Program-made: the position numbers and the translations under genes
Assembly: GCA_001404055.1 (NCBI GenBank)
Contig: CXTY01000014.1
Location: forward strand, 124,001 to 188,000
Direction of reading: 5' to 3'
DNA from: Roseibium album
Lineage (GTDB): Bacteria > Pseudomonadota > Alphaproteobacteria > Rhizobiales > Stappiaceae
Length of the DNA: 64,000 nucleotides
In this document: positions 3,101-24,866 of the stretch, one piece after another
Position numbering within the stretch: position 1 is the first letter of the stretch
Layout: each line of letters begins with the position of its first letter
The notes under the pieces: generated by a model
Told to the model about the DNA's origin: nothing
The model's database searches: none
Seen by the model: the letters and a program-made list of their open reading frames with translations, nothing else

Positions 3101-3125
3101 TCGCGTCTCGGGCTGGGGAAAACGA

Positions 3126-6764: not shown

Positions 6765-6776
6765 TTTTACGAATTG

Positions 6777-6941
6777 CCGATAGGACGGTGTCCCGCCCTA
6801 TCGGTAGGCATCCCACGCGGATGCAGCCCGGCCTGCCGGGCGGAGGTACAAACGAGACGCGAATGCGCCTAGGGGTTTGGACCGCGTGGTCCGAGGTAGT
6901 TGTCAGAAATAGGAAGCACGTCTCCAGGGAAAAACCCCTGG
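6777..6941 (+). promoter_or_regulatory. structured tssC-hcp intercistronic region with four hairpins
   Basis: Four separate inverted repeats lie in 165 nt: 6777-6804 (CCGATAGG/CCTATCGG, inner CGG/CCG), 6826-6841 (GCCCGGC/GCCGGGC), 6879-6892 (GGACC/GGTCC) and 6924-6941 (CCAGGG/CCCTGG). The last ends 28 nt before the hcp start. None has a T-run, so simple termination is unlikely. A processing, stabilising or translational-control element giving hcp a different expression level from tssBC fits, since Hcp is needed in large excess. Confidence 0.5.
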
Positions 6942-6969
6942 TCGTCAACAACTTAAAGGATCTTTTAAA

Positions 6970-7455
6970 ATGGCTGTCGATTTTTTTCTTGAGCTTGAAG
7001 GTATCAAAGGCGAAGCACAGGACAAAACCCATAAGGACAAGATTGATGTCCTGTCCTGGTCCTGGGGCGCATCCCAGTCCGGCACCACCCACATGGGCGG
7101 CGGCTCTGGTTCAGGCAAAGCACATTTTCAGGACTTGAGCATCACAAAATACGTCGACAAGTCGACACCTGTGCTGCTGCAACATGTATCCACCGGTAAG
7201 CACATCACCAAAGGTACAATGTTTGTACGTAAGGCTGCTGGTGATACTCCGTTGGAATACATCAAAATTGAAATGAAGGACATTATTGTTACCAACGTTT
7301 CAACCGGCGGCAGCGGCTCAGATGACCGCATTACAGAAAGCGTTACGCTTAACTTCGGTGAATACAAGTACATCTACACCGAACAGAAGCCAGACGGTTC
7401 AAAAGGTGCTGCACCAGAATTTGCCTGGGACATCGCATCAAACGAGAAAAAATAG
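6970..7455 (+). CDS. hcp: Hcp family type VI secretion tube protein (TssD)
   Basis: 161-residue tube protein that stacks as hexameric rings inside the sheath and is secreted. The sequence starts AVDFFLELEGIKGEA, followed by the SWSWG motif in VLSWSWGASQSG, then the FQDLSITKYVDKSTPVLLQH core and a C-terminal SVTLNFGEYKYIYT strand pair, all typical of Hcp. Length is normal (about 160-172). An AAAGGA ribosome binding site stands 9 nt before ATG 6970. It follows tssC and precedes tssE, with a structured leader upstream and 146 nt without a gene downstream. Confidence 0.97.
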   Translation: MAVDFFLELEGIKGEAQDKTHKDKIDVLSWSWGASQSGTTHMGGGSGSGKAHFQDLSITKYVDKSTPVLLQHVSTGKHITKGTMFVRKAAGDTPLEYIKIEMKDIIVTNVSTGGSGSDDRITESVTLNFGEYKYIYTEQKPDGSKGAAPEFAWDIASNEKK

Positions 7456-7601
7456 GTTTCTCCAAATGTTGGTTGTCGCCTGCTGTGCGGCAGCCAGTTC
7501 CCTCGAAAAATGGTCCGGCGGTCCTGTCCAAAATTCTGGATTTTCTGCTGCCGGCCATTCAAGTTACCATTTCAGGGCAGCTGCAAGCGTGGGGTTAGCC
7601 A

Positions 7602-8153
7602 ATGGCTAAATCAAAAGTGAAAATGCACTCCCCGTTGATGTGGGCCTTCCGAGCAATGGACGACCCGGACTTCAAGGCGGCGCAAGCTCGCCAAAAGGAG
7701 GATGAGGCCGGAAAGAAACTTCGATCCGGTCGGCGCCTTTCTCGGGCATTCGGTATTTCTGAACATACTCTTCTCTCCGAAGTTCGCCGCGACCTTCAAG
7801 CACTCCTGAATACCGTCAATCTAAACTCATCTCAGAACCTGTCCGATTTTCCAGAGGTTGCAAACTCCATCATCAACTTCGGTCTGCCGGATCTGTCTGT
7901 TCATATCGTCGACACAGTTCGAATTTCGAAGCTCGCTGAGGATATTCATCAAGCGCTTGTCCGATTTGAACCGAGAATGAACCCGCGCACCCTCAAAGTC
8001 GAACGAGATGAAGCAATTGAAAGCGATACTTTTAAAGTTCGTTTTCTAATCAAGGCCGAAATACGATGTGACCCTGTTCGCGTCAGCAGCGAATTTATAG
8101 CAGATGTCGATCCAGCCTTTGGTCGGATCAAAATTATTGGGGCGACTGCATGA
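7602..8153 (+). CDS. tssE: type VI secretion baseplate protein TssE (gp25-like)
   Basis: 183-residue baseplate wedge subunit related to phage T4 gp25, linking baseplate to the first sheath ring. The gp25 domain covers about 55-165: LLSEVRRDLQALLNT, then PEVANSIINFGLPDL, then the RFEPRMN-type and FLIKAEIRCD blocks. About 50 N-terminal residues are basic and variable. The stop overlaps the tssF start by ATGA, so tssE and tssF are translationally coupled. No strong ribosome binding site is seen before ATG 7602. Confidence 0.93.
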   Translation: MAKSKVKMHSPLMWAFRAMDDPDFKAAQARQKEDEAGKKLRSGRRLSRAFGISEHTLLSEVRRDLQALLNTVNLNSSQNLSDFPEVANSIINFGLPDLSVHIVDTVRISKLAEDIHQALVRFEPRMNPRTLKVERDEAIESDTFKVRFLIKAEIRCDPVRVSSEFIADVDPAFGRIKIIGATA

Positions 8154-10147: not shown

Positions 10148-11667
10148 CCGGCGCAGACGATAAGGATCAAACCACCAAGCAAAAGAAGCGGAAGCGCGCG
10201 TCAAAGCGCGATAAAACCGTTGTCGAATTTTCGGGTTCAAAGTCAGTGGTTTGGCCAAGTGAAGAGGATAACTCCTACTCTGAAATCGTGACCTCAGAAA
10301 TCCAACAATCGGCGACAGAACCCGACAAAACGATAATATTGCGCACGCCTAAATCGGACGCTTCTTCAAAGGCAAAAGTTCCGGAAACACCGTCGCACTC
10401 CTCGGCATCTGAGGAAACATCACCCTCACCTGCCCCTCCGGACAGTGAAACCAATACGCCAGTGGAAGTTCGCCAGGAGCCCGAAGAAGAAACGCCGCCT
10501 TCCGAACCCAGGATAGAGGTCCCGGTTCAACATCAGTATGCATCCCTGTTGGCAGCTCTAAGCGCACGAATTGAAAAGCACCCGGGCGGACATGATCTAC
10601 TAGCGGTCCTGCGCATGCTTGAGGGCCAAACAGCACCCGGCGCCAAGACTTCGGGCATCGACAATAAAAAATCTGACGAACCGGCCCCGCCACGGATAGG
10701 AAAAAGCCGCCGCTCAATGGAGGACATTGTCCGCTTTGGCCAGGACCCATCAAGTGAATTTGCACCTTCGACCATCGAACGCGCCACGCGCGACGGCGAT
10801 GGTGGTCTGGTCCTGCTGGAACGTTTCCTCGGTCTCCTAGGTCCTCAGGGCGCCCTGCCTTCTGCCTTCACGGACGAAGCAATCATGCGGGGACTGAAAG
10901 GCGAAGATAGTTTCCCGCGGTTCCTGGATGTCTTTAATAATCGTTTCATTCAGCTGTTTTTCAGGGCTTGGGCGGACGCCCGACCGATTGTTCAGCATGA
11001 CCGTCCGGACGATGACCGCTTTCTTGCCTACATTGGATCGTCCATCGGTGTGGGTTCTCCGATTTACCGCGACCTTGACCGCGTCGATGATCGATTGAAG
11101 CTGCTTTATGCCGGACTGACCTCCGCCAAATCCAAGAGCGCAATCCGCCTGAAATCGCTGATTACTGGTGTCTTCGGTGTCAAAGTCGAGGTGGATCAGT
11201 GCGTTGGCACATGGCTTCATCTGGACAAGGACGATCAACTCAGTTTGGGCGGGTTCGGGCCGGGCGGCGCAGGACAGCTCGGAGCTGATACAATTGTCGG
11301 TGCCAGGGTTTACAGCGTAAGCGACAAGATCCGAATACGGATATTCACTGGTTCGCTTGACGAATACCGGAAGTTTCTACCGCCAACGCGAACCAAACCC
11401 AATCCATGGACCGAAAAACTCTTCGATCTCATCGACTTTTATCTGGGTCTCGAGATTGAGTACGAAATTGAACTTGCCCTGCCAAAGCGGTGTTCCTCTG
11501 CGGTTCAAATGAACCGGAACAATTCCGCAACGCTTGGGCATATCGGGTGGTTGAAGCCTGCCGCCGCAGAAACAGATATCTTGGAAGAAGCGGAACTTGA
11601 AGACGAAGAAATGCTGACTGACACACGCTTCCGGCCGGTGCGCCGGCACACCACCGTTTATCAATAG
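10144..11667 (+). CDS. tssG: type VI secretion baseplate protein TssG with long N-terminal extension
   Basis: 507-residue TssG (ImpH/VasB). ATG 10144 overlaps the tssF stop. Family sequence begins near 132 (LLAALSARIEKHPGGHDLLAVLRMLEG) and continues with PRIGKSRRSMEDIVRFGQDPSSEFAPSTI (183-210) and RDLDRVDDRLKLLYAGL; the normal protein is about 330-360 residues. Residues 1-130 are an added, apparently disordered tail: a lysine/arginine patch (12-23), then Ser/Thr/Pro/Glu-rich sequence with DKTIILRTP at 61-69. A phospho-dependent or baseplate-tethering role is conceivable but not shown. A second small insertion lies at about 160-185. Confidence 0.92.
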   Translation: MTGADDKDQTTKQKKRKRASKRDKTVVEFSGSKSVVWPSEEDNSYSEIVTSEIQQSATEPDKTIILRTPKSDASSKAKVPETPSHSSASEETSPSPAPPDSETNTPVEVRQEPEEETPPSEPRIEVPVQHQYASLLAALSARIEKHPGGHDLLAVLRMLEGQTAPGAKTSGIDNKKSDEPAPPRIGKSRRSMEDIVRFGQDPSSEFAPSTIERATRDGDGGLVLLERFLGLLGPQGALPSAFTDEAIMRGLKGEDSFPRFLDVFNNRFIQLFFRAWADARPIVQHDRPDDDRFLAYIGSSIGVGSPIYRDLDRVDDRLKLLYAGLTSAKSKSAIRLKSLITGVFGVKVEVDQCVGTWLHLDKDDQLSLGGFGPGGAGQLGADTIVGARVYSVSDKIRIRIFTGSLDEYRKFLPPTRTKPNPWTEKLFDLIDFYLGLEIEYEIELALPKRCSSAVQMNRNNSATLGHIGWLKPAAAETDILEEAELEDEEMLTDTRFRPVRRHTTVYQ

Positions 11668-11692
11668 ATCGCAAGTTTGAAAGGCCGACACC

Positions 11693-14509
11693 ATGAGTGA
11701 CATTCTGGTAGAAACCGTTGCCAACAAACTCACAACCGTAAGCTACGAGTGCCTTGAAAAGGCGATGCGGCTTACCAAGAGCTCCGGCCATCGCCACCTG
11801 GAGGTCTTGCATTGGCTCTACTACCTTGTACGGGACGAAAACACCGACCTGGTTCATATTCTTGGGCATTTCGGGATCGACGCAGGTGTCGTTCACACAG
11901 ATCTACAGCAGTCCATATCTGAGTTGAAAATCAATCAGACCGAGCTACCCTCAATGGCAGCACCTTTCCAGGAATCGCTTGAACGCGCCTGGTTTGAAGG
12001 GACACTTCGCTATGGGGACTATAAAATCCGCTCAGCCTACGTCCTTATCGCAGCCATGGGCGACAAGACCACATGGCGTCAGTTCCTCAGCTATTCCTCA
12101 GCCCTTGCGGACATCAACCGGGATGTCTTGGTTCGCAATCTGGATAGCATTGCCGGTGCATCCGGTGAGACAGCTGCCCGCCCCATTGATGGCTCTGGTC
12201 CGAAGGCTGCGGTGCAAGGCGGTGCAGGTGATGGCGCTGAAAGTGCTCCCGGCAGTGGTGTGGGTGAGGACGCACTTGCGCAGTTCACTGTGGACTTTAC
12301 CGCGCGTGCACGTGCAGAAGAGTTCGACCCGATAGTCGGGCGCGACGAGGAAATTCGCCAGGTCATCGATGTTCTGATGCGCCGGCGGCAAAACAATCCA
12401 ATCCTGACCGGTGAAGCAGGCGTCGGCAAAACGGCCATCGTTGAGGGTTTTGCGCAGAAAATCGTCGCCGGCGATGTCCCGCCTTCCTTGCTTGGCACAC
12501 GGTTGTGCGCACTTGATCTTGGGCTGCTGCAAGCGGGTGCATCGATGAAAGGCGAGTTTGAAAAACGCCTGCGGGCCGTCATTGATGCTGTCCATGCATC
12601 CATCGTACCCACTATCATCTTCATTGACGAAGCGCATACGCTTGTTGGTGCCGGTGGCGCTGCTGGTACCGGCGATGCCGCCAACCTTCTAAAACCGGCA
12701 CTGGCACGTGGAACATTGCGCACTGTTGCCGCGACAACCTGGTCTGAGTACCGCCAGCATTTCGAAAAAGACCCGGCTCTCACCCGACGTTTCCAACCCG
12801 TCCAGGTGGATGAGCCGGATGAGGAGAAATGTTTTGCCATGGTACGTGGCCTTCTCGGACCTATGGAAGAACACCATCAGGTTCGCATTCTGGACACCGC
12901 AGTACGATCTGCCGTATCGCTATCGCATCGATACATTCCCGCCCGGCAGCTGCCGGACAAAGCAGTCAGCGTGCTCGACACGGCCTCGGCGCGCGTCAAC
13001 ATCTCTCAAGCGGCACAACCGGCCAAACTTTCTGATCTTGTCGCTAAAAAAGGTTTCCTGGAGACAGAAAAGCAGGCGCTCACCAACGATACGGAACTGG
13101 GAATGGAGCATCAGGAACAGCTTGATGCACTGGATACCGCGATCGAAGGAACAGAGACAGACATTGAAAACATCCGCGGCGAATGGGAGCGAGAGCGCAA
13201 ACTGGTCGCCGGTATCCGCAGGTTAAACGCCGCACTGACGAAATTGAAAGGCGGTGATCCAGCGCCCCATCCAGAAAGCGCGGATATCGAAGATCCGGAG
13301 CATGATGGACAGGCTCTTGTTTCCATTGACGAGATTGATCTCGACCTGGATGTCGACCTGGAGAGCGAAGACGACATTCGAACCGCGCTGAAAGATATGC
13401 GCGCTGAACTTTCAGAAATCCCGGAAGACGACCGCATGGTCTACGCCTATGTAGACGACGAAGCAGTTGCCAGCATCATATCCGACTGGACCGGAATTCC
13501 GGTTGGACGCATGGTTCAAGACGAAATGCAGACTATCTTGAATCTCACCGAGAGCCTGAACAAGCGGGTGGTCGGCCAGGCCCATGGGCTGGCAATGATT
13601 TCCAAGCGCATTGAGACCAGCAGAGCGCAACTTGGCAACCCGGACAAGCCAATTGGCGTATTCATGCTCTGTGGGCCGTCCGGGGTCGGCAAGACTGAAA
13701 CCGCGCTGGCGTTGGCTGAAACACTCTATGGTGGTGAGGAAAGCCTGATCACCATCAATATGTCGGAGTTTCAAGAAGCGCATTCCGTTTCCGGCCTGAA
13801 AGGAGCACCTCCCGGATATGTAGGATACGGTGAAGGTGGACGCCTGACGGAAGCCGTTCGGCGCAAACCTTACTCCGTGGTGCTGCTTGACGAGGTTGAG
13901 AAAGCCCACCCGGATGTGCACGAAATTTTCTTCCAGGTTTTTGACAAGGGCTGGATGGAAGACGGCATGGGCCGGAGGATCGACTTCCGGAATACGCTTA
14001 TCCTGCTGACTTCAAATGTTGGCACCGACACCATTATGAGTGCTGCCAGTCACATGTTGGATGCACCAATTTCCGACGACCCCTCTCAGGCGGCATCGGA
14101 CCCCAATGCACCTGATCCTGAACAGCTGGCCGAGTCGTTAAGACCCGCGCTACTGGATGTTTTCCCACCTGCCCTCCTGGGGCGCATTGTGACAATCCCC
14201 TATTACCCATTGTCACCCTCCATGCTCGGCTTCATTGTTCGGCTGCAGCTCAATCGGATTGTCAAACGCGTCAGGGAAAACAGGGAGGCAGAACTATCCT
14301 ACGGTGATGATCTGGTTGCCTACATCGTCTCGCTCTGCCGCGATCCGGACAGCGGTGGGCGCATGATTGACAACATCCTCACCAACGACCTCCTGCCCAA
14401 ACTCTCGCGCACATTCCTGACTGCACAAATGAATGGTGAGGAAGTTAGTGGAGTCTCGCTGAAGGCTGGCGATGAAGGGATTGAGATGACGCTTGATGGG
14501 GTCGACTGA
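11693..14509 (+). CDS. clpV: type VI secretion AAA+ ATPase TssH (ClpV)
   Basis: 938-residue unfoldase that disassembles contracted sheaths. A ClpN-type N-domain (1-165) is followed by AAA-1 (Walker A GEAGVGKT at about 240-247, Walker B IIFIDEA near 308), a coiled middle domain (about 430-520), and AAA-2 (GPSGVGKT near 660, VVLLDEVEKAH near 730). A C-terminal D2-small domain ends it. Both ATPase sites look intact. Between the middle domain and D2 lies a very acidic insert at about 525-575 (ADIEDPEHD, EIDLDLDVDLESEDD), longer than I expect for the family. It follows tssG by 25 nt and ends the plus-strand T6SS run. Confidence 0.95.
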   Translation: MSDILVETVANKLTTVSYECLEKAMRLTKSSGHRHLEVLHWLYYLVRDENTDLVHILGHFGIDAGVVHTDLQQSISELKINQTELPSMAAPFQESLERAWFEGTLRYGDYKIRSAYVLIAAMGDKTTWRQFLSYSSALADINRDVLVRNLDSIAGASGETAARPIDGSGPKAAVQGGAGDGAESAPGSGVGEDALAQFTVDFTARARAEEFDPIVGRDEEIRQVIDVLMRRRQNNPILTGEAGVGKTAIVEGFAQKIVAGDVPPSLLGTRLCALDLGLLQAGASMKGEFEKRLRAVIDAVHASIVPTIIFIDEAHTLVGAGGAAGTGDAANLLKPALARGTLRTVAATTWSEYRQHFEKDPALTRRFQPVQVDEPDEEKCFAMVRGLLGPMEEHHQVRILDTAVRSAVSLSHRYIPARQLPDKAVSVLDTASARVNISQAAQPAKLSDLVAKKGFLETEKQALTNDTELGMEHQEQLDALDTAIEGTETDIENIRGEWERERKLVAGIRRLNAALTKLKGGDPAPHPESADIEDPEHDGQALVSIDEIDLDLDVDLESEDDIRTALKDMRAELSEIPEDDRMVYAYVDDEAVASIISDWTGIPVGRMVQDEMQTILNLTESLNKRVVGQAHGLAMISKRIETSRAQLGNPDKPIGVFMLCGPSGVGKTETALALAETLYGGEESLITINMSEFQEAHSVSGLKGAPPGYVGYGEGGRLTEAVRRKPYSVVLLDEVEKAHPDVHEIFFQVFDKGWMEDGMGRRIDFRNTLILLTSNVGTDTIMSAASHMLDAPISDDPSQAASDPNAPDPEQLAESLRPALLDVFPPALLGRIVTIPYYPLSPSMLGFIVRLQLNRIVKRVRENREAELSYGDDLVAYIVSLCRDPDSGGRMIDNILTNDLLPKLSRTFLTAQMNGEEVSGVSLKAGDEGIEMTLDGVD

Positions 14510-14622: not shown

Positions 14623-14919
14623 TTAGCCGCCGATGAGAACGGTAAATTCACCCGTTGTAATCACTCCGCCCTTCAGGGTTGGATCTCCGATCCGGGCCGC
14701 CAGTAATTTGCCGATCAGCACAGTGACGGATCCCATCACGATCGGATCAACATTTGCAGGTGGTGGTCCAACGCAAGCACATAGGTCCGTCACCCTGGCG
14801 GCAGGACGTTTGCCAATCAGAACATTGACCATGCAGGGTGGCAGGATCGGCAAGCCTGGTGGCACTGGCGTCATGGCACACATATGGAAATCGCCCAAAC
14901 GGGCAGCTGGACGGGACAT
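14623..14919 (-). CDS. PAAR domain spike-tip protein
   Basis: 98-residue PAAR protein that sharpens the VgrG spike. It shows PAAR hallmarks: MSRPAARLGD at the start, repeated GKRPAARVTD and GKLLAARIGD turns, VTVLIG strands, and Cys/His residues (H12, C14, C30, C48, C50) suited to metal binding. No fused toxin domain is present. AAGGAG stands 9 nt before ATG 14919. It is convergent with clpV. With one VgrG in this locus the pair could form the tip, but no effector or immunity gene is adjacent. Confidence 0.93.
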   Translation of the reverse strand: MSRPAARLGDFHMCAMTPVPPGLPILPPCMVNVLIGKRPAARVTDLCACVGPPPANVDPIVMGSVTVLIGKLLAARIGDPTLKGGVITTGEFTVLIGG

Positions 14920-15036: not shown

Positions 15037-17031
15037 CTACTGCGTACTCAATATGCCTCCGATAGCGGTCCGGTAGTCTTTCAGATCTCTGCTTGCGACC
15101 GATTGGGGCGCGTCCGTCCCAGCTTCCATTTCAAATTCAAGAGGATCCGTCGGTTCACCCCGCAACCGGATTTCAAAATGCAGATGCGGACCGGTAGAAA
15201 GGCCTGTCGTTCCAACATAACCGATCAGATCACCTGCCTGAACAACTGACCCCAACTCGACGCCATCAGCATACTCGTGCATATGGGCGTAGCGGCTGGT
15301 CGTTCCACCTTTATGCGTGAGTTCGATAAAGTTGCCGTAGCCGCCTCTGACGGCGCGATAACTGACTTTTCCTGAAAACGCAGCCCGGATAGGTGTCCCT
15401 GTCGGCGCTGCCCAGTCCACACCAGCATGCAATCTCTGGGTCTTTTTGATCGGGTGGAAACGCATTCCGAACTTGGATGTCAAAACACCCTTTACCGGAA
15501 CCAGCATGGCGCCGGAAAGGCTCACCTTTCCGCCTTCACTCACACAGGCAAAACCCCTGTTGCCGGGCGCCTTGAGAACGTAACAGCGTACTGACCAGTT
15601 ATCGCCACGACGCACGCCTGCAAACAACACTCTTCCGCCGCCACGTTTTTCATCACGCGCAGCATCTGTGAAAACCAGTGTGAAACGTTCATCAGGCTTC
15701 ACGGAGCGTTTGAGGTCAGTCATGGGGGCAAGGTATGCAATTGCCTCTCCAACGATTGACGCAGGCACAGCGTTCCGGACAGCCGTTGCATAAAGGCCGT
15801 CGATCAATCTGTGTTTTTTGGCTGGGGCTGCGTCTTTATTACTGTCAACTTTTTGCTCCGCAACGGTTTTCCCGAACCAGGGATCAGCCCCATGAACGTA
15901 ACTCTCTCCCTGTCTGGCGGTAGAGAAAGCTGCTGTTCCGACATACCCTTCTTTGGAATAGAGCGAGACCTGGACTGGGCGGTAATAGTCGCCAATGCGA
16001 CCGAGTTTATTCGGAAGTCGTACACCTCGCACAGCGATCCTGTCGCCTGCGGTCAAATCGCCCTTTCTGATTTCACTCGATACAAATTCCAGCAAAGGTT
16101 TTGCGGCATCCTCGTCAAACCCGTTCTCCTTCAAGAAGGTCATGAGGCTCGTCGCTTTCTCGATTTTTTTCCGGATTTCTATTCTGCTCGGTCCTTGCCC
16201 GATAGGCCGTTCAGACAAGAAGAGGTTCAGCGTATCTGTAGGTGGTTTTAGAAATACCGGCATATTCGAGGTATTGTCATCAGTGGCGCTGGCAGGTTCA
16301 TCAATCATGAGACTGTCAGTGTCTTCGCCTCCGCCAAAATTGCCAAACTGGAAATCGGCCTCATTTCCGGGTGCACGGATTACCAATTCACCGTCCTCAC
16401 CAAGCATCTGACTATCAAGGACATAGGCATTTATTGTCGGGAAAGACACTGCTTTACTCGAACCAGCGTTTTCAGGGATCATGCGCTCAGACAATTCGAT
16501 CCGCCGCGCGGCCGCATCCGATTTTAGCAGAACCGGGTCACCGGCGAGCGGAATAACAGCAGAGACCGCCATATCGAAAAATGGATCAGCTGGAACATCT
16601 ATCTCGTCTCCGGTCGCGAGTTGGTTTTCCAACTCCACAGACTCTGAAGATGCGTCGAGAGAACTGCTCGTCTCCGCAACCGCTGACGTATCCTGTTGGC
16701 CGCTTTGCGCCACAGGAGTTTCTTGATCCGTTAAATCTACTTCTTCCGGGTTTGTCTCAGGAGTTGGTGGCGAAAGCGATATCGCGCCGGAGGTTATCAG
16801 ATGCGTAACACCACCAAACACGCCTCCTAGAATCAAAAATCCCAACGCCAGCGCCACATACCGATATTTGGTAAAACCTCGCCGCGGCAGACTGGGCCTG
16901 ACCATATCTGATGGTGCCGGATCGCGTTGATCTCCAGATCGTTCGGCAACCGGTCTCGACGAACGAATGACGGTCCTGTCAAATTCAGGACGCCGACCGC
17001 CCGGGTTATGATTGTCAGGCCGATGAACCAT
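15037..17031 (-). CDS. membrane-anchored M23 (LytM) peptidoglycan endopeptidase
   Basis: 664-residue envelope protein. A basic, proline-rich cytoplasmic tail (1-56) precedes one membrane segment (57-79), a long acidic/Ser-rich periplasmic stretch, an internal domain rich in R-S-V-K-P-type sequence, and a C-terminal M23 metallopeptidase. The zinc site is complete: HAGVD at 535-539 and HLHFE at 616-620, with GLSTGPHLHF context. It should cleave peptide cross-links in peptidoglycan. It follows the CHASE2 gene by 103 nt and is the last gene of the minus-strand set beside the T6SS genes. A wall-opening role in T6SS assembly is inferred from position. General cell-division or growth hydrolase is the alternative. 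Confidence 0.88.
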   Translation of the reverse strand: MVHRPDNHNPGGRRPEFDRTVIRSSRPVAERSGDQRDPAPSDMVRPSLPRRGFTKYRYVALALGFLILGGVFGGVTHLITSGAISLSPPTPETNPEEVDLTDQETPVAQSGQQDTSAVAETSSSLDASSESVELENQLATGDEIDVPADPFFDMAVSAVIPLAGDPVLLKSDAAARRIELSERMIPENAGSSKAVSFPTINAYVLDSQMLGEDGELVIRAPGNEADFQFGNFGGGEDTDSLMIDEPASATDDNTSNMPVFLKPPTDTLNLFLSERPIGQGPSRIEIRKKIEKATSLMTFLKENGFDEDAAKPLLEFVSSEIRKGDLTAGDRIAVRGVRLPNKLGRIGDYYRPVQVSLYSKEGYVGTAAFSTARQGESYVHGADPWFGKTVAEQKVDSNKDAAPAKKHRLIDGLYATAVRNAVPASIVGEAIAYLAPMTDLKRSVKPDERFTLVFTDAARDEKRGGGRVLFAGVRRGDNWSVRCYVLKAPGNRGFACVSEGGKVSLSGAMLVPVKGVLTSKFGMRFHPIKKTQRLHAGVDWAAPTGTPIRAAFSGKVSYRAVRGGYGNFIELTHKGGTTSRYAHMHEYADGVELGSVVQAGDLIGYVGTTGLSTGPHLHFEIRLRGEPTDPLEFEMEAGTDAPQSVASRDLKDYRTAIGGILSTQ

Positions 17032-17134
17032 GACTTAGTCGAACGCCTGTAATGCCGTTAAGACTCATTTGTTGGACTTGATGATGCCGGATAGCTCAGG
17101 AAGATGCAAAACGTGACACTGCCTCACTCAGGTT

Positions 17135-19078
17135 TCAACTTTTCCGGCGGAACTTGAGGAGTTGGGAACGACCAGACTTAGTTGTCGCTTCAGAAGTTGG
17201 ACCTGTCTTCTCCATGTACATTTCCGGCACATCCAGCGTAAAGACGGAAATATCCGTACTGAGACCGCGTAATTGCCCGGTCCAGATCTCAGTGACCGGA
17301 TAGGATCTGGGCAATTGATCTGCAACTGACTGGCTCACGGCCAAACGCACTTTCTTGTCCTTCGCGACAGCTTCGACCCGGCTTGCCGTGTTCACAGTTG
17401 TTCCCATGACAGTAAACGACCGTCGATGTTCGCCGCCGATATCCCCAACCAGGACGGGCCCGGCATTGAGTGCAATTCTTAAGTCCAGTGCATGCTGACC
17501 GGTAATTTCCCTTATTCTTTCAAGCAAACCGACAATATCAATGGCCGCGTCCACCGCGGCTTGCTCTGGCCTTTCAACGCTGTTTGGCGCATTCCAGACT
17601 GCCATGATCGCGTCACCGATGTATTTGTCGATATATCCGTGGTGAGACGTGATCGCCTGACCGATTGCATCAAAACAGGAATTGACCACGCGAACGACAT
17701 CCTGGTCGGCAAGTTTTTCGGACATTTTTGTAAAGCCGACGATGTCGATAAAGGCAACGACAACATGACGGGTCTCGCCGCCGAGCTCCGGCAGCTGTTC
17801 TGACTGCGCCATCTGCTTGATGACGTCTTTTGCAAGATAGTGCCCGAACAATCTGACCAGCGTGCGCTGTCTGCGCTGCAAAATCCCGACCTTGCTCACG
17901 GAGGCAACAACCATCGCGCTTACGCACGATACCGGCATGACACCAGGGGCTAACAAAACGCCGAGTTCGAGGCCGATCAATGTGAAGCCGAGACCAGCCA
18001 AGACACCGAAAAAGGCAATAAGTGGCAAAGCGATGAGCGGCAAATAAAGTCCGGCCAACGCGCCTGCAACTGCAAAGGCGAACGCCAGAGCAGGCAAACT
18101 GCCTGGAGGTGGTTCGATGGCAATTCGTTCCGACAGCGCAGAGCCAATGAATTCCGCCAAGACAAGGACCCCTGCGGTATCAAGCAGGGGAACAGGAGGC
18201 CTGCCACTTGCACCGGTTTCTGCGTTTTCTGCTGGCGTGTGAGGCAAGAACCGGTCGGAAAACCGGTGTTCATCTTCGTAAGGCAGCAAACCACCGAACA
18301 TTACAACCCGCCCCTTCACAAAGCGGCCCAGGTCGGCCCTGCCCTCCTCGGTTTCCAACATTTCCAAAACGTCGATCAAGGAAAGATAAGGCAAGGATGT
18401 TGCTAGTCTTGACGAAGGTATGGGTGTGTAATTTTCAGAGACCGTTGCGCCTGCTGCATCCAGCAAAGCATCGATGAGATAGGGAGATTGAGCGAGTGGT
18501 GTGCTCGGCGCGTGCCAGCGCACGACGCCATCACTGTCCGGTACAACCTGAACAGACCGCACGCCGCTCGCTCCAGCTGCGCCAGAGAAACTCCGGTGAG
18601 GAACACCAACCTCGGTGTGGGCAACAAATATCTTGCCCCTGTTTTGAAACAAGAACCGTTTGAAGGGCTGGTCGTAATTCAGCAGCCGCTTTTCGCCGGA
18701 GCTGGGGTCGACAAATGTGTCAGCGCTATAGGCAAAAACAAAATCAAAGCCCAGCGCAACTGCACCAGCATCCAATACTGCCTGCCCGGCTTCGGCCAGA
18801 ACTGGTGTCATCAGTACGCGGGGGACGGAAGATAGTCGCTCAGAGTCCAATGATCTCTGGTCCAGACCAATAACTGCAACGGGAGACGTCGCAGTTTCCT
18901 GCGGTCCCTTCACGATGGCCCGGATCTGAAAGAGCTGGTCTGTTACCCAGCCTTCCCAGATGGCCTTTTTCGCAGATAAGCCGATGACGGTGCCTGCAAG
19001 TATTGCGACAAACGCAATGAGTAGAACAAGCTGTTTTTTGCCAAGGGCTGCATCTGCAAACGGCCCGCTTGATGTCAT
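17135..19078 (-). CDS. CHASE2-domain adenylate/guanylate cyclase receptor
   Basis: 647-residue membrane sensor. One N-terminal membrane segment (about 17-36) is followed by an extracytoplasmic CHASE2 domain (about 40-320), then closely spaced membrane helices (about 327-395) and a class III nucleotidyl cyclase domain (about 435-600). Catalytic residues are visible: metal Asp in FIDIVGFT (D444) and in YIDKYIGDA (D489), a purine-binding Lys in the same block (K485), and VNTASR (N563, R567). The Lys favours ATP, hence cAMP. The start overlaps the preceding small exported-protein gene by ATGA, suggesting that protein and receptor work together. The ligand is unknown. A fused cyclase beside T6SS genes is uncommon. 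Confidence 0.9.
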   Translation of the reverse strand: MTSSGPFADAALGKKQLVLLIAFVAILAGTVIGLSAKKAIWEGWVTDQLFQIRAIVKGPQETATSPVAVIGLDQRSLDSERLSSVPRVLMTPVLAEAGQAVLDAGAVALGFDFVFAYSADTFVDPSSGEKRLLNYDQPFKRFLFQNRGKIFVAHTEVGVPHRSFSGAAGASGVRSVQVVPDSDGVVRWHAPSTPLAQSPYLIDALLDAAGATVSENYTPIPSSRLATSLPYLSLIDVLEMLETEEGRADLGRFVKGRVVMFGGLLPYEDEHRFSDRFLPHTPAENAETGASGRPPVPLLDTAGVLVLAEFIGSALSERIAIEPPPGSLPALAFAFAVAGALAGLYLPLIALPLIAFFGVLAGLGFTLIGLELGVLLAPGVMPVSCVSAMVVASVSKVGILQRRQRTLVRLFGHYLAKDVIKQMAQSEQLPELGGETRHVVVAFIDIVGFTKMSEKLADQDVVRVVNSCFDAIGQAITSHHGYIDKYIGDAIMAVWNAPNSVERPEQAAVDAAIDIVGLLERIREITGQHALDLRIALNAGPVLVGDIGGEHRRSFTVMGTTVNTASRVEAVAKDKKVRLAVSQSVADQLPRSYPVTEIWTGQLRGLSTDISVFTLDVPEMYMEKTGPTSEATTKSGRSQLLKFRRKS

Positions 19079-19761
19079 TTCACGATGACAACCGCAGTTT
19101 TGCGACCGACTTTAATCGGATCGATGGTGAACTTACGCATCACAACACCAAAGTCTGGTGCCTTGCCTTGCAAAAACAACTCGACATCAACGGCTTCATC
19201 ATCATCTTCACGAGCTGGCATGTCCGTCAGAATGTTGTCCATCACGTCAAACCGTTTTGGCGCACCACCCTCAAATGAAACAAAAACCGTGTCGTACTGG
19301 CTGCGTAGATCATCGTCGAAGCGAAGCATCAAGGCGGCAGCTTTCTTGTCCGAGAGACTAAGGCCACGCAACGTGACGGTTAGCCCCTTGGCCGCGGAAT
19401 CGGTATTTGCATCAGCATCAGCCTTCAGGCAATTGCCAGCGCGCAAAACCTTTTCTTCGCCGCCTTCATGCACATACCCAGAGGACGCAACAGTGATGAT
19501 ACCGGACTTGACGCGCACTTCCTGGCAAGCGGCATAGTCGAGCAAATCGATGTGCCCATCCGGGCCAAGATCAACGACATCTCCAGGCAACAACTCTGTA
19601 AAAGCCGAAACCTCGATTCCTTCTGATTTATCCAGGATCAGCGCTACAGGTTCGGCAAATGCAGCGCTTGAGAGTGTCGTTACACCCATTGTCAACGCGG
19701 TAGCTATTCCTGTGGTCTTCAAACATCGCCGTACACGGGCGCATGCAAGCGAATGTGTCAT
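19075..19761 (-). CDS. exported FecR-like protein of unknown function
   Basis: 228 residues with a clear signal peptide (basic n-region, hydrophobic 18-34, cleavage after AFA at 36). The mature part starts with a segment resembling FecR-type beta modules: EVSAFTELLPGDVVDLGPDGHIDLLDY, then a Cys-containing EVRVKSGIITVASSGYVHEG. The second half (about 130-228) is acidic and unrecognised. It is coupled by ATGA to the CHASE2 receptor, so it may supply or present the signal to that receptor. AGGAG lies 7 nt before ATG 19761. FecR similarity is by pattern only and should be treated as weak. Confidence 0.6.
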   Translation of the reverse strand: MTHSLACARVRRCLKTTGIATALTMGVTTLSSAAFAEPVALILDKSEGIEVSAFTELLPGDVVDLGPDGHIDLLDYAACQEVRVKSGIITVASSGYVHEGGEEKVLRAGNCLKADADANTDSAAKGLTVTLRGLSLSDKKAAALMLRFDDDLRSQYDTVFVSFEGGAPKRFDVMDNILTDMPAREDDDEAVDVELFLQGKAPDFGVVMRKFTIDPIKVGRKTAVVIVK

Positions 19762-19857
19762 GACGGTCTCCTAAGTCTTTGGTCCAGCAGCGACAGGAAC
19801 TCATTCGCGCCCAGCGCTGTCTCTATAGCCTAATTCTATCAGAGGACGGCGATATGA

Positions 19858-19875
19858 GTGTGGCCATGGTCACAC
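19858..19875. promoter_or_regulatory. candidate operator upstream of the exported protein-CHASE2-M23 genes
   Basis: GTGTGGCCATGGTCACAC is an 18-bp palindrome with one mismatched pair, about 97 nt upstream of the exported-protein start in the 169-bp gap after the caspase gene. It suggests separate control of the downstream three genes. No regulator consensus was recognised. Confidence 0.35.
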
Positions 19876-19930
19876 ATAAGAGCTTTATACCGCAATAGGA
19901 TACATGAGAACCCGCCTGCAAGGTACGTGT

Positions 19931-21559
19931 CTATCCGGCTGGCTCTGTATAGACCCCTGTTATCCCAACACCATCTGCAGAGTTTCGAATCAACTTCAGC
20001 AGACTTTTGGTGAGGTTCTCGTCCAGCGGTTGACCATCCAGCGCAGCAAGCACGCCTACAAGTTTTGGCATGGGTTCAGAAGACTGAACCATTACAATAT
20101 GATCTGCTCCAAACGGGAGGGCTGCGCGAAGGTTCAACGTGTAGGATTTATTCGCGACTAAAGTGGTGTCCTTGCCTAGCGGATCAGCCTTCTTGTCGGG
20201 AGCAAGCAACCGAAGTGTGCCATCTGCTTCCAGCGCAAAAACAGACATGTATCCGTCTTGTTCAGACGTCAGCCCCACCCTGAGAGGCGAACCTTCCGGG
20301 ATATGGCCAACAGCGGGACGCAATGTCCCTTCGATAGGCTGAAGATCGCGGGATAGTTCATAGAGATCAGAGAGGAACACCCATTTCGTCACAACGTCCG
20401 ACAGACGATCAGCATCTCGGGCTTCCCTTCTCAGCACGACGTCGCCAAACTTTGTCAGAACGTCTCCTGCCTCGACATCCCAGTAGAGATCAGAGCTACC
20501 GGTTCCCGTAACACTCAGCCTTCCTTTATGGCGTTGTGAAAGCTTGTTCAAGACAGGTACTGCGGCATCGGTGCTCGCAGACAGGGTTAGCTTGCCCGTA
20601 TCGCTATTGAAAATGTCGTCGTTAACACGCGGGAGCACTGCAGAACGTGTCTCACCGCCGATACTCAGGCTTGGGGTTTGCCGTCCTTCGGTGGCTACCC
20701 TCACCGTTTCCTTCAGAAATCGGCTCAGCTCCGCCATCGAAATCCCACCATCCCGGTCCAGATCTGCACGTCCTTCTACGCCGCGTGCGAAGGACCAGCT
20801 CAGGGCACCTCTTGGTTCACCTGCAATAATCAACTCAGGGATCACCTGCCCATCGACTGTCGCACCTACATAAACGACATTTGGCAGCTGCTGCAGATCC
20901 TCTTCTTTTCCCTTCGAACTCACCAGCACCGAATGAGGAGCCCGTGTGCGCAAGACGTCGTTCTCAAAGGGAGGTAATCCAACCAACCTGGTACCCAGCC
21001 TCTTGATGCGTGGATCAACGGACCTTGTCATCGTACCGGAATGGCAACTGTCCGCCAGGATAAGCACGCTGCGTTCACCTGCCGCTCTCAGCATCGCCGC
21101 AATATCGTCATCACGCAGCCGTTCACCATTTCCGGGTGCGGAAACATCAAAGCCTGCCAACAGAAAGACTTCATCAAATCCGTCTTCTTCCGATCCCTCG
21201 ACCCATTCGCGTTCCTGAGCGCCGTGACCAGCGTAGGACAAAACAAGAACATCATCAGATTCAGATCGGGCGATCAGATCCTGCCATGCGTTGAGGACAC
21301 CTTCTCTCGAGGCCTCCCCATCATATAGAGTAGTCAGATCCTGAACACCCGCCGCCTCCAAGGTGGAGGCGATGTCTCTTGCATCATTAACAGCGCCATT
21401 TAATGGCGACACGTGCTGATAGGCATCAATGCCAATCACCAGCGCGCGCCATTCTCCTGCGACCGCCGAAACTGACAAGGAGAACAAGCACAAGACCGCG
21501 CCAAGAATACAGGATTGGGCCGCGCGCACGGTATTGCTATGCTTCGACAATCTATTCAT
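19931..21559 (-). CDS. exported caspase-like (C14) protein with EF-hand loop and DUF4384
   Basis: 542 residues. A signal peptide (about 1-34) leads to a caspase/metacaspase fold with both catalytic residues: His112 in SYAGHGAQE and Cys172 in ADSCHSG. Residues 266-277 (DLDRDGGISMAE) match an EF-hand calcium loop, so calcium control is possible. The C-terminal part (about 420-510) reads like DUF4384: GSPLRVGLTSEQDGYMSVF, then LLAPDK and a final HIVMVQSSEP strand. The protein should act in the periplasm or envelope. It follows the Gly-rich lipoprotein by 22 nt. Its substrate is unknown; together with the larger caspase gene it forms a pair. Confidence 0.85.
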   Translation of the reverse strand: MNRLSKHSNTVRAAQSCILGAVLCLFSLSVSAVAGEWRALVIGIDAYQHVSPLNGAVNDARDIASTLEAAGVQDLTTLYDGEASREGVLNAWQDLIARSESDDVLVLSYAGHGAQEREWVEGSEEDGFDEVFLLAGFDVSAPGNGERLRDDDIAAMLRAAGERSVLILADSCHSGTMTRSVDPRIKRLGTRLVGLPPFENDVLRTRAPHSVLVSSKGKEEDLQQLPNVVYVGATVDGQVIPELIIAGEPRGALSWSFARGVEGRADLDRDGGISMAELSRFLKETVRVATEGRQTPSLSIGGETRSAVLPRVNDDIFNSDTGKLTLSASTDAAVPVLNKLSQRHKGRLSVTGTGSSDLYWDVEAGDVLTKFGDVVLRREARDADRLSDVVTKWVFLSDLYELSRDLQPIEGTLRPAVGHIPEGSPLRVGLTSEQDGYMSVFALEADGTLRLLAPDKKADPLGKDTTLVANKSYTLNLRAALPFGADHIVMVQSSEPMPKLVGVLAALDGQPLDENLTKSLLKLIRNSADGVGITGVYTEPAG

Positions 21560-21581
21560 GGCGAATTGCTCTCAGTATCGC

Positions 21582-21845
21582 TTAGCCCCAGGAGCCGCCG
21601 CCGCCGCCACCTGGACTGTCGTTGCCACCGCCGCCGCTGTCGTTGCCACCTCCGCTGTCATTGCCGCCACCATTATCGCTACCGTTGGAACTAGGATCAT
21701 TAATCGGATCCACTGGTAGCGCTGCTGCGGGTTGAGTTTTGGTTTTTGCTGCCGGTGTTGTTTGGGTGGCTGTTTGCGTCTGGCATCCAGCCAACAGCAA
21801 AGCCAAAACACCGGCGACCGGCAAAACGAATTTCAATGAAATCAT
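21582..21845 (-). CDS. small Gly/Asn/Asp/Ser-rich lipoprotein
   Basis: 87 residues. A signal sequence ends in a lipobox (LLAGC, Cys at 21). The mature chain is Thr/Gln/Ala-rich, then low-complexity repeats of the type GGGNDS from about 56 to the end, finishing in a glycine tract. No outer-membrane retention signal is seen beyond a neutral QTQ at +2. It sits between the two caspase-like genes (18 nt and 22 nt gaps), so it is almost surely co-expressed with them. It could be a tether, a calcium-binding linker or a caspase substrate; nothing in the sequence decides this. Confidence 0.8.
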   Translation of the reverse strand: MISLKFVLPVAGVLALLLAGCQTQTATQTTPAAKTKTQPAAALPVDPINDPSSNGSDNGGGNDSGGGNDSGGGGNDSPGGGGGGSWG

Positions 21846-21863
21846 GAGTTCTCTCCTTACCCC

Positions 21864-24575
21864 TTAAAACAGATCGTAACGCGGACGGTTCTGTTCCCAC
21901 TGGTGTTTCACCAATGCAATTAGTGCTGCGTCCCCTTGCACGGAATCGCGACCGGAGGACTGAAAGAAATTAGCAAGTGCTTGCCGTGTTTTACGACCAG
22001 GTTGGCCGTCGACAGGCCCCGGTTCAAATCCCAGATCAGTCAGGGCTTGCTGCACCACTTTGGCCTTTATCGCTTTCGCTGTTTTTCCTAGGCCGTCTTT
22101 CGCTTTTTCAGCTGCCTGAGATGATGGGTCTACAGCAACAGCCATCGCCAACATTCTTGCGCGGTCACGACCGGCAGCCTCTCCTGATTGCTTTCCGAGC
22201 ATGAATGCAGTGTTGTATGCGCCCCAGGCATCGCCCCGCTGAGCACTTTCACGGAACCATTTGGTAGCTTCTTCGGGGCTTTTCTCAACACCATTGCCAT
22301 TGAAATAAAGCAATCCTATCGCAGTACCTGCAGCCGGATGGCCACCGTCATGCGCCTTCCTGAACCATCCAAGCGCAGCTTCATAGTCTTTGGGTACGCC
22401 CCTGCCATCCCTGTACAGAGTACCCATGTTCAAGAAACCATAGATGTCATTTCGCGCAGCTGAACGATTATAGTAGTAGACAGCCCTGTCGGTGTTCTCG
22501 GCAACATGGTCACCATTCAGGTAGAAGCCGCCTATCGCGTTGTAGGAAAAGGTGTGCCCCGCTTCTACAGACTGAAGAAGTTTTTCAAGACCGGACGTTT
22601 CGTTCTTTGACGTTCCTTCACCCTTGATTTCTGCCATACCGAGTGAGTGAAGCGCATAGGCATCGCCGCGTTCGGCGGCTTTCTGGTAAAGCTCAACTGC
22701 CTTTTCTCGGTCCCGGTCAATACCAGCACCCAGATAGTACATGCGCCCCAGGACTTGACCTGCCCTTACATGACCCATCTGGTTCGCTTTTCCGAAAAAC
22801 TCGATTGTCCGCTCAAGGTCGCCAGAAGCGAACGAACCGCGGCCACGTTGAAATACAAACCTTCCAATCGCAGGATATTGCGCCATGGCTTCTGCGCAGG
22901 CCTTATCAACCGCAACCGGATCAAGATCATTGGCCAGACGGCCTTCGGTCACTGCCTGAAGATCAAAGGGTTGCGTCGCCAATTGATCGCATTGCGTCAC
23001 GCGTGGCTGTACGATCTGGGCGATTGTTTCGGCAGGCACATCTGAATTGGCAGGCAATTCCAGTGAAAACTGTCTCGCTTCCTGCTCGCTGCCGATCTGG
23101 GGACGAACTGTTAGCGATGCAAGCGCAGCGATTGGAAAGCGATCGCCTTCCCGGAGAAGACGGCCATCAGAAGAAAGTTGCAGGTCACTGTCAACTGAGC
23201 GAATCTTGACCCAGGCACTGGATGCCGGAAGACCTTCTGCGGGTGCTTTGGGATAGACGGCAACCGGTCCAACGCCGATGTCTGCTTCTACTACTCCTGT
23301 CGCAGCCTCCGACAGCCAGGCTCGCAACTGATCCAGTTGCCTGTTTTGGTCTTCGGCTGAAGTATCTTCAGGAACCGGTGTTGAAGACTGGGCAATTGTT
23401 ACGGAGGCAATGGCTGAAACTGTGCCGCCCCACTGATCTTTTACTTCGTATCCAATCAGTTCAACATCACCTGCGCTTGAACTGGTCGGTACAAATTCAA
23501 GGCTGGCAAGCTCGCTTGCCTTTATCACATCCCCTTCAGAAACAGATTCTCCTCCAGGGAGCCTCAACTCCCCCTTTTCAGGAGAGAGGTTCAAAGTCAC
23601 TTGCAAAGAACCGCCTTCGGGCTGAACGGGCTCTGGGATAGAAAGAGCAAACGTTTCACTATCGATCGGCACACTTACCCGGTGATGCGCCGTAACGATC
23701 GGCTCGGGTTTTGGCGGCACAAAGTAGAAATTGGTTACAAGCGTAGAATCTTCATAAGGGATTTGCTGACCACCGGTTTTCCGCACGACTTCATCGCGAA
23801 CCCGTGTCATGAGATCCTTGATCTCAAGCGACGGGTGAAGTGCGTTGCTGACGACCGACGATGTAAATGGGCTCATCGGGCCTTCGCCGTCGAAAGCCAC
23901 CTGACCAGGCCGCGTTGCGTAGGAAATAAAGGCACCCAGCTTGTTCGGGATGCGCCTCAAACCTCTTGTCTTTCCAAGAGAATATTCCTGTTCGCCCCAA
24001 AACAAACTGCCAATTTCAAAAGGATTATCGCGACAGGCGTCAAGCATGACGATCTGCAAACTCGATGCCGCTTTCATGTAATCCAGGAGGTGCGAGACCT
24101 TCAGACTTTCAAATTCAAGGTCATACTGAGAGCTCAGTTTTGCATCGATTGGTAAAATGAAATTTGCTTCACCAACCTGTAGAGCATGGCCTGAATAGTA
24201 GAAAAGAGCCGTGTCACCTTCATTGAGTTCACGCAGGAATCGCCTGACAACCTGCTCCAGATCCTTCTTCGTCAGGTTGAGACCCACAGTAACGTCGAAA
24301 TCCGACTCTTGAAGAACCCGTGTTATTTCTTTGGTATCGTTCAGCGGGTTTTCCAGGGGTTCAACATACTTGTAGTCCTGGTTTCCAATAACGAGTGCCA
24401 CCCGACGACCTTCATCAGTCGTTGCCGCCAAACTGGCCCCACCGGCACAGCTTATTCCAAGTGGCAGACTGACGAGACCGACCTGCAGGAAACGCCGTAA
24501 CCGTCTCGCGACCGGTTTTGAAACCGCATCGCGTGCCAAGTGTGGAAACACGGGTATAACATCCTGTTTTTGCAT
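21864..24575 (-). CDS. caspase-like protein with cadherin-like, Sel1 and peptidoglycan-binding domains
   Basis: 903-residue multidomain protein. A basic N-terminus and hydrophobic stretch (about 30-50) suggest export or membrane anchoring. The caspase p20-like domain covers about 57-290 with His130 (YYSGHAL) and Cys181 (LDACRDNPF). Two similar beta modules follow (about 335-363 and 463-492) with the spacing seen in bacterial cadherin-like repeats. Sel1 repeats fill about 600-790 (for example GRMYYLGAGIDRDREKAVELYQ), and a C-terminal peptidoglycan-binding helix set at about 838-875 (QQALTDLGFEPGPVDGQPG). This links a cysteine peptidase to the wall. It is the first gene of the minus-strand set. 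Confidence 0.88.
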   Translation of the reverse strand: MQKQDVIPVFPHLARDAVSKPVARRLRRFLQVGLVSLPLGISCAGGASLAATTDEGRRVALVIGNQDYKYVEPLENPLNDTKEITRVLQESDFDVTVGLNLTKKDLEQVVRRFLRELNEGDTALFYYSGHALQVGEANFILPIDAKLSSQYDLEFESLKVSHLLDYMKAASSLQIVMLDACRDNPFEIGSLFWGEQEYSLGKTRGLRRIPNKLGAFISYATRPGQVAFDGEGPMSPFTSSVVSNALHPSLEIKDLMTRVRDEVVRKTGGQQIPYEDSTLVTNFYFVPPKPEPIVTAHHRVSVPIDSETFALSIPEPVQPEGGSLQVTLNLSPEKGELRLPGGESVSEGDVIKASELASLEFVPTSSSAGDVELIGYEVKDQWGGTVSAIASVTIAQSSTPVPEDTSAEDQNRQLDQLRAWLSEAATGVVEADIGVGPVAVYPKAPAEGLPASSAWVKIRSVDSDLQLSSDGRLLREGDRFPIAALASLTVRPQIGSEQEARQFSLELPANSDVPAETIAQIVQPRVTQCDQLATQPFDLQAVTEGRLANDLDPVAVDKACAEAMAQYPAIGRFVFQRGRGSFASGDLERTIEFFGKANQMGHVRAGQVLGRMYYLGAGIDRDREKAVELYQKAAERGDAYALHSLGMAEIKGEGTSKNETSGLEKLLQSVEAGHTFSYNAIGGFYLNGDHVAENTDRAVYYYNRSAARNDIYGFLNMGTLYRDGRGVPKDYEAALGWFRKAHDGGHPAAGTAIGLLYFNGNGVEKSPEEATKWFRESAQRGDAWGAYNTAFMLGKQSGEAAGRDRARMLAMAVAVDPSSQAAEKAKDGLGKTAKAIKAKVVQQALTDLGFEPGPVDGQPGRKTRQALANFFQSSGRDSVQGDAALIALVKHQWEQNRPRYDLF

Positions 24576-24866
24576 AACGACCTCAGTGCTCTAATCGCAC
24601 TACATTTTCGCGTCTGAGAAATATTCAGTCTGTGACAAAACACACATGCGGGCCGAACCCGCGTCAAATTCCCGTCATCAACTTGCAGAAAACTTCCCTA
24701 AAGTGATGCACACTTGGGGGCAGGACGCAAGCTGGATAGTTCCTGCAGGAACGGATCCGGGGACCTGCTGTCCGAAACCGGTTCGGAGTTGAAGGATTTC
24801 AATTCCAACCGAGTCGTTTTACGCTTGGCAGCCAGCCGACAAGCTCACCGCTATATTGGGATCCAG

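Follow-up and report, generated by a model that had tools for sequence, protein, structure and literature searches.

A composite locus of exported caspases, a CHASE2 receptor cyclase and a T6SS in Roseibium album, with CRP-type boxes common to its promoter regions

To our knowledge, the role of exported bacterial caspases is largely unknown. In Roseibium album, two such proteins are encoded next to a T6SS core, together with a lipoprotein, a receptor cyclase and a cell wall peptidase, which raises the question of what holds these genes together. The question was followed in a window of 64,000 nucleotides (G000:C14:124001-188000), the whole stretch of DNA that was analysed, which is part of a genome of 5.99 Mb. 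A first-pass annotation had described six co-directional genes beside the T6SS core and had read them as one envelope-sensing and proteolytic control system. The six genes are indeed intact; they all lie on the minus strand and converge with the T6SS core, and the PAAR gene follows them as a seventh co-directional gene (14919-14623). The features are:

137..14509, T6SS genes in the window: vgrG on the minus strand; ompA-like, tssA, tssB, tssC, hcp, tssE, tssF, tssG and clpV on the plus strand
14623..14919, minus strand, PAAR spike protein, the last co-directional gene (Pfam PAAR 7.9e-14)
15037..17031, minus strand, M23 (LytM-type) peptidase, membrane-anchored (Pfam M23 3.8e-31)
17135..19078, minus strand, CHASE2/class III receptor cyclase (Pfam Guanylate_cyc 5.5e-25, CHASE2 4.2e-15)
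19075..19761, minus strand, exported partner protein of 228 aa, of no known family
19931..21559, minus strand, CASP2, exported caspase carrying DUF4384 and a loop that resembles an EF-hand (Pfam C14 2.1e-18, DUF4384 3e-6; EF-hand matches below the cut-off)
21582..21845, minus strand, LIPO, Gly/Asn/Ser-rich lipoprotein of 87 aa, called from the sequence, with the lipobox LLAGC followed by Q
21864..24575, minus strand, CASP1, exported protein with a caspase domain, four Sel1 repeats and, at its C-terminus, a PG-binding-like domain (Pfam C14 1.7e-40, Sel1 4.7e-29, PG_binding_1 1.5e-4, the last just below the cut-off)

The genes tssG, clpV, tssA and ompA-like were assigned by family search and the other T6SS genes, except tssC, by reading. 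We judged by eye the signal peptides, the membrane anchors and the -10 elements, and likewise assigned the transmembrane segments of the CHASE2 cyclase by inspection.

Both CASP1 and CASP2 belong to the Peptidase C14 family, with the domain above the cut-off and the His-Cys dyad present. The intact catalytic residues expected for the two caspases were confirmed on their orthologues, with His and Cys kept in 25 of the 25 readable CASP1 sequences (26 rows were compared, one being gapped at the site, and G209 lay outside the set) and in 27/27 CASP2 sequences; export was judged by eye. CASP2 additionally contains a loop of the type D-[LF]-[DN]-[RK]-D-G-G in 27/27 orthologues. Metacaspases are Ca2+-dependent, and the D-x-D/N-x-D-G-G loop of CASP2 agrees with such a dependence. 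The predicted structure of CASP2 was unusably poor (pLDDT 56.4). Of the 15 named relatives that CASP2 retrieved, eight are 69-76% identical, seven filed under Roseibium or Labrenzia and one as a Rhodobacterales bacterium. A pattern search identified the lipobox reading frame of LIPO in 22 of 26 loci, and BLAST added G176 and G200. A third caspase, CASP3, is encoded outside the window (G000:C14:105555-107108), and five Roseibium genomes contain a second, distant caspase2-like gene of nearly full length (32-35%).

In the accessible part of the literature on prokaryotic caspase homologues (PMC3501461), Peptidase C14 proteins are described with a His-Cys dyad and with Sel1 repeats in 6.0%, and one metacaspase-CHASE2 fusion was reported for Trichodesmium. 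Roseibium differs from what is given there in having two separate exported caspases and a lipoprotein in one operon, with a CRP-type box and beside a T6SS. CASP1 was also compared with ExoR and rejected as a member, with 29 bits against a cut-off of 450. According to the available text of PMC3460628, periplasmic ExoR breakdown regulates an alphaproteobacterial T6SS, so that a periplasmic protease beside a T6SS has a precedent in kind.

The small exported protein was proposed to be coupled by ATGA to the CHASE2 cyclase, and this 4-bp overlap was found again in 26 of 27 genomes, the CHASE2 frame being split in G194. The cyclase is a CHASE2 receptor cyclase by its CHASE2 domain and its class III catalytic residues, and the motifs KYIGDA[IV] and MGTTVN are present in 38/38 sequences. 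Its K...T residue pair presumably confers adenylate rather than guanylate specificity, and the protein is probably an adenylate cyclase. For the exported partner, no Pfam or NCBIfam match was obtained. An assignment to FecR (PF04773) was rejected, with no match in 12/12 members and hhalign probabilities of 0.3% and 0.5%. The model of the partner is of low confidence (pLDDT 63.7) and with it no PDB fold was matched at E <= 0.001; the protein is probably all-beta. FecR-domain genes were identified within 6 kb of 18 of the 40 CHASE2 genes in 21 genomes (0.33 expected), which makes an exported protein beside CHASE2 a recurrent arrangement.

Comparable circuits have been described for other bacteria. 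In Sinorhizobium meliloti, the CHASE2 receptor cyclases of the CyaD1/CyaD2/CyaK-Clr system act via a CRP-family regulator, and clr, cyaD1, the FecR-domain gene smc02177 and the exported-protein gene smc02178 are neighbours (PMC5498481, PMC13001267). In the available portions of these two papers no caspase or T6SS is named for the circuit; the relaxed Clr box given there (HGTYHCNNNNGRWACA) differs from the Roseibium box, and S. meliloti has a FecR-domain neighbour, whereas the Roseibium partner is not a FecR protein by test. In the BiofilmReg operon of Burkholderia, a FecR/LysM exported-protein gene adjoins a CHASE2-kinase gene (PMC5192318, accessible part). The output there is a kinase, in contrast to the cyclase of Roseibium, whose partner is without a FecR match.

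The claim that the six genes form one module did not hold, since the exported-protein/CHASE2 pair was found without a T6SS and the M23 gene goes with the T6SS island. Distributions were compared in a family sample of 87 genomes, the own genome included, among which one genus accounts for 45. The exported-protein gene was identified in 39 of the 87 (in two pieces in G153). Of these, 32 belong to the genus, and the 7 from other genera have no VipB match in the genome. The pair directly faces CASP3, with no T6SS between, in three genomes of the genus (G206, G180, G212), where VipB is encoded elsewhere in the genome, and in four of other genera (G158, G154, G156, G157); in G116 and G155, CASP3 lies on a different contig from the pair. 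Facing CASP3 without a T6SS in these seven genomes, the exported-protein/CHASE2 pair appears to be old. The caspases beside CHASE2 in the T6SS-free loci had been considered as CASP1; only the caspase domain matches, and they are CASP3.

Between CHASE2 and CASP3, the M23, PAAR and T6SS genes make up an island with a length of about 35 kb. An M23 orthologue (at least 62% identity) was found in 29/87 family genomes, the same 29 that carry the island, and its metal motifs are kept in 29/29; the remaining M23 matches are paralogues of 30-37%. The slot between M23 and clpV differs among genomes. G206 and G196 show 96% DNA identity on both sides, with about 35 kb extra in G196. This insert spans the CHASE2 3' end to the CASP3 3' end, and the island therefore occupies the CHASE2/CASP3 junction. 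The empty site was found in G206, G180 and G212, and we think that one gain with later loss is the simpler reading of the tree. Outside the window, the island codes for DUF6931, Fha, TssK, TssL, TssM, TagF, a PP2C phosphatase (PppA) and a Ser/Thr kinase (PpkA), and further on for two ExbD-like proteins, an ExbB-like protein and DUF1036, followed by CASP3.

The CASP1/CASP2 pair was identified in 27 of the 87 family genomes, every one an island carrier of the same genus. Within this genus it is present in 27/29 island carriers, the two without it being G196 and G199, and in 0/16 of the others; ten of these 16 island-free genomes contain another VipB, yet no caspase pair. The six-gene order was seen in 26 further genomes, so that the expected recurrent linkage with this T6SS was found in 27, two of them (G207, G209) cut by contig ends. 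CASP2 and tssC are 13.1-15.3 kb apart on the same contig in 26/27 and on separate contigs in G207. The genus represents one lineage, and the 27 genomes are not independent events. With the 27 caspase genomes as one clade in the exported-protein/CHASE2 tree (38 genomes), an AU p of 0.529 was obtained; a single origin of the caspase pair is thus possible, and its 27/27 tie to the T6SS may represent one event that was kept. In the trees of the caspases, the T6SS, M23 and the cyclase pair (25/27 genomes), 16-19 of 22 splits are common pairwise, which suggests that they mostly descended together. As judged by these comparisons, the locus consists of three units brought together, the cyclase pair, the M23/PAAR/T6SS island and the caspase pair, and not of one.

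Outside the family, a general tie of caspases to T6SS was not found. In a sample of 149 other genomes of the order, with a cut-off for caspase2-like genes of E at most 1e-10, a caspase2-like gene was identified in 30, VipB in 20 and both in 2 (4.0 expected); VipB is thus present in 2/30 caspase genomes vs 18/119 others (Fisher p 0.37). The co-occurrence of the caspase homologues with T6SS that the first-pass annotation would have led one to expect is therefore missing in the order sample, and since other Roseibium T6SSs are also without the pair, the caspase2 family as such was rejected as T6SS-linked. In 20 caspase2-like loci (L035-L054, up to 20 kb each), no gene was labelled as tss; by label, 17 of the loci include an OmpA-like gene and 13 a second caspase2-like one. 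At L035, L036 and L038, the caspase2-like genes have as neighbours a CRP gene, a gene for a CHASE2 cyclase and DUF928. DUF928 is present at L039 too, where the contig end truncates a cyclase gene, and L040 and L042 each contain a CRP gene. CHASE2 was found near caspase2-like genes of other families in 3/20 loci (0.14 expected) and by family search in none of the other 17, among which some contigs are short and G036 has a cyclase fragment at a contig end. The proximity of CHASE2 and caspase2-like genes belongs to a few families.

What the units of the Roseibium locus have in common was found in their promoter regions, as a conserved 16-bp candidate box of about TGTGA-N6-TCACA. The candidate sites, with one further palindrome, are:

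2054..2069, no strand given, TGTG-N8-CACA palindrome in the vgrG/ompA divergent region with other inner half-sites, exact in 28/29 genomes and with one mismatch in G199
2255..2270, plus strand, ompA-tssA CRP-type box AGTGACTTTCGCCACA, with one deviating base in the outer half-site, in 29/29 island genomes
4527..4542, plus strand, tssB-tssC-hcp-tssEFG-clpV CRP-type box TGTGACTGTGATCACT, in 29/29 island genomes
19859..19874, minus strand, exported-protein/CHASE2-operon CRP-type box TGTGACCATGGCCACA, in 37/38 genomes
24631..24646, minus strand, caspase-operon CRP-type box TGTGTGTTTTGTCACA, in 27/27 caspase-pair genomes

The count for the exported-protein/CHASE2 box leaves out G153, and the one genome without the box is G177. 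Eleven genomes with this box are without CASP1/CASP2, six of them from outside the genus, and the alignment upstream of the exported-protein gene likewise revealed a TGTGACCATGGCCACA-like box in genomes with and without caspases. The gap of 169 bp between CASP2 and the exported-protein gene contains a conserved promoter-like region that is also present in caspase-free genomes; a single six-gene transcript is therefore unlikely, and one co-transcribed operon of six genes was discarded as a candidate. A -10-like element follows the box by about 19-21 bp at tssB, ompA, CASP1 and the exported-protein gene, as judged by eye. We take class II CRP promoters to be spaced in this way. At tssB and ompA, conservation is higher in the box than in the flanking sequence. 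For CASP3, the exact TGTG-N8-CACA was found in 0/6, and with a weight matrix 13 of the 16 loci showed the one-base variant TGTGA-N6-TTACA, located at -118 to -121 and scoring 6.5-15.1. A CRP-type operator at a consistent promoter position was thus obtained, of which ompA and CASP3 carry one-base, lower-scoring variants. The palindrome at 2054 was rejected as a CRP-type box, since its 13 variants had a median at the 24th or 52nd percentile of random TGTG-N8-CACA, depending on the training set.

The weight matrix was trained on the CASP1 and exported-protein boxes, so that independent cases are provided by the T6SS and CASP3 promoters. Prediction of one training set from the other is only moderate, with medians at the 83rd and 80th percentile of random TGTG-N8-CACA. 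The 300 bp upstream of 14 genes were scanned in the 29 island genomes, with the weakest CASP1 box as threshold (13.5). This score was reached at ompA-tssA in 25/29, at tssB in 7/26 (median 13.1), at vgrG in 4/29 and at PAAR in 1/10, as compared to 2% of random 300-bp windows; CASP3, scored separately, reached it in 1/16. The score was reached in none of the regions upstream of hcp, tssE, tssF and clpV (0/28 each), tssA and M23 (0/29 each), tssC (0/19) and CASP2 (0/26); these low-scoring regions lie mostly inside operons and are weak promoter controls, hcp, M23 and PAAR being the more telling ones. In the window, five sites score at least 13, where shuffles average 1.13 (maximum 3 of 30), four at the listed promoters and one in a coding frame (36625). 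Loose TGTG-N8-CACA is mildly enriched in the window (4 vs 1.16 expected), with 5 of 100 shuffles equally high.

Boxes of this kind were also found at the caspase2-like loci of other families. In 23 such loci (402 kb), the canonical TGTGA-N6-TCACA occurs 6 times, as compared to 0.25 on average in shuffles (maximum 3 of 40). Three of the boxes are located upstream of OmpA-caspase or CRP-cyclase genes, at distances of 88-127 bp (two at L038 and one at L040), and a fourth is 283 bp away from a CRP gene (L042). The loose TGTG-N8-CACA showed no enrichment in the other-family loci, with 11 in 442 kb where about 8 were expected from the window rate. The five CRP genes of these loci code for RE[SA][VI]NR in the recognition helix, which reads likewise in CRP itself. 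Among eight other T6SS loci, the canonical box was found in one, about 50 bp before hcp.

On balance, we lean towards a composite locus held by one transcriptional switch, in which a CRP-family activator together with cAMP would drive the cyclase, the caspases and the T6SS. The CHASE2 receptor cyclase with its exported partner would sense an envelope or neighbour-derived signal and produce cAMP, with which a putative CRP-family activator would bind the class-II-type boxes. The activator would raise the cyclase operon itself, as a positive feedback, the CASP1-lipoprotein-CASP2 operon and CASP3, and the T6SS operons beginning at ompA-tssA and tssB. In the T6SS-on state, the exported caspases would act as envelope cysteine proteases and M23 would cut the wall for the T6SS, with firing set separately by PpkA, PppA, Fha and TagF. 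Since CRP-type regulators can be global and at least eight class III cyclase matches are present in the genome, the neighbouring cyclase need not be the source of cAMP. The first-pass reading survives in part: a CRP-type box is common to the caspase, the cyclase and two T6SS promoter regions, which makes a co-control of caspases and T6SS at the expression level likely, and the part that did not stand is the six genes as one module. A related case is Vibrio cholerae, in which hcp needs crp and cya (PMC2726435, available part); the cyclase there is Cya, whereas the neighbour in Roseibium is a CHASE2 receptor, and exported caspases have the same kind of box.

The common boxes have to be weighed against a purely historical reading, to which we give a smaller share of our belief, namely that the T6SS island landed by an older cyclase/caspase stress system and that a global CRP with a large regulon regulates both with no specific link. 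The seven loci in which CHASE2 adjoins CASP3 without a T6SS fit this reading, as do the empty sites set against the 35-kb insert and the failure of caspase2-like genes to follow T6SS in the order. However, other upstream regions of the same loci seldom reach the box score, the four best non-coding sites of the window all lie at the locus (two of them trained the matrix), and the family genomes showed the caspase pair nowhere but beside the island, in 27 of them. A control of firing, as the first-pass annotation had suggested with a module that licenses or ends it, would have caspases and lipoprotein act post-translationally, as an envelope sensor to PpkA that replaces TagQRST or RtkS, and we regard this as unlikely. 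The T6SS TPP pathway is represented in the island by all four members, PpkA, PppA, Fha and TagF, and TagQRST genes were not noticed in a general Pfam annotation of the island; with the lipoprotein and exported proteins present and the linkage kept in 27 genomes, a sensor of this kind could be accommodated. On the other hand, G196 and G199 keep the T6SS without CASP1/CASP2, and related caspase loci free of neighbouring T6SS genes occur in other families and in the five Roseibium genomes that carry the second caspase2-like gene. According to the accessible part of a T6SS review (PMC10482370), in which caspases are not mentioned, the PpkA/PppA/Fha/TagF threonine-phosphorylation pathway sets firing elsewhere; licensing or ending of firing by the module found no support.

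Two further readings are very improbable. The caspases or M23 might be T6SS cargo, for which the PAAR gene adjoining M23 and the variable M23-clpV slot could be named; the caspases, however, have Sec-type signal peptides and M23 has an N-terminal membrane anchor (by inspection), and M23 is kept in all 29 island genomes. For a Pycsar- or caspase-type anti-phage cell-death system, to which we give just as little weight, the PADLOC models for PycC (cyclase) and caspase match in a scan that covered six proteins. The PycC matches are however confined to the cyclase domain (within residues 398-612), the caspases look exported, and no Pycsar effector was identified among the genes as annotated.

A more specific form of the transcriptional switch is a retaliation programme, which we consider rather doubtful. 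Here, CHASE2 would sense envelope damage or the signal of a neighbour and raise cAMP, and the CRP-type activator would build the T6SS together with Ca2+-responsive periplasmic caspases anchored to the wall and the outer membrane. Proteins of the envelope, such as regulators or effectors coming in, would be their targets, and the cleavage would protect or prime the firing cell. In the open-licence literature, a link of caspase, CHASE2-cyclase and T6SS is not described among the matches listed, and the word 'caspase' is absent from the available text of a paper on the Pseudovibrio T6SS (PMC4811931).

With a CRP-type box common to the caspase, receptor-cyclase and T6SS promoter regions, the locus gives exported caspases a testable place. 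The box is conserved across 27-38 genomes, and related caspase/CHASE2/CRP clusters are present in a few other families. If the proposed switch is true, bacterial caspases would be part of an envelope or contact-killing programme under the control of cAMP.

The features considered here lie in the window or, for the last, elsewhere on the same contig of the R. album genome (G000:C14):
2054-2069, palindrome TGTGCTC-N3-AACACA, conserved between the divergently transcribed vgrG and ompA-like genes
14510-15036, slot between M23/PAAR and clpV, with counterparts at loci L100, L102, L103, L107, L108 and L110
28247-28744, cytochrome P460-like protein
G000:C14:107207-111785 (L122:7207-11785), two ExbD-like genes, an ExbB-like gene, a gene for a 602-aa protein and DUF1036, within the T6SS island

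The palindrome is the second conserved one identified in the vgrG/ompA region, and its outer bases are exact in 28 of the 29 genomes. Its half-site differs from that of the CRP-type box; it is perhaps bound by another regulator. In a T6SS of another family, a canonical CRP box was identified about 50 bp upstream of hcp (L079:9474).

For the ExbD/ExbB-like set, inspection by eye revealed resembling reading frames in the related Roseibium genomes G196 and G199. The 602-aa protein of R. album gave no Pfam match. To our knowledge, energy-transducing genes are unusual content for a T6SS island.

An additional CHASE2 gene, adjoined by three consecutive FecR-domain matches, is present in the R. album genome at G000:C14:243609-248117. 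In the related genome G194 (L104), CASP1 and CHASE2 are each split into two frames, which reflects either decay or sequencing error.

The content of the slot between M23/PAAR and clpV differs among genomes: LCCL-domain proteins occur there, as do a PG-binding protein and several others without an assigned family, and it is possible that this slot serves as a cargo site.
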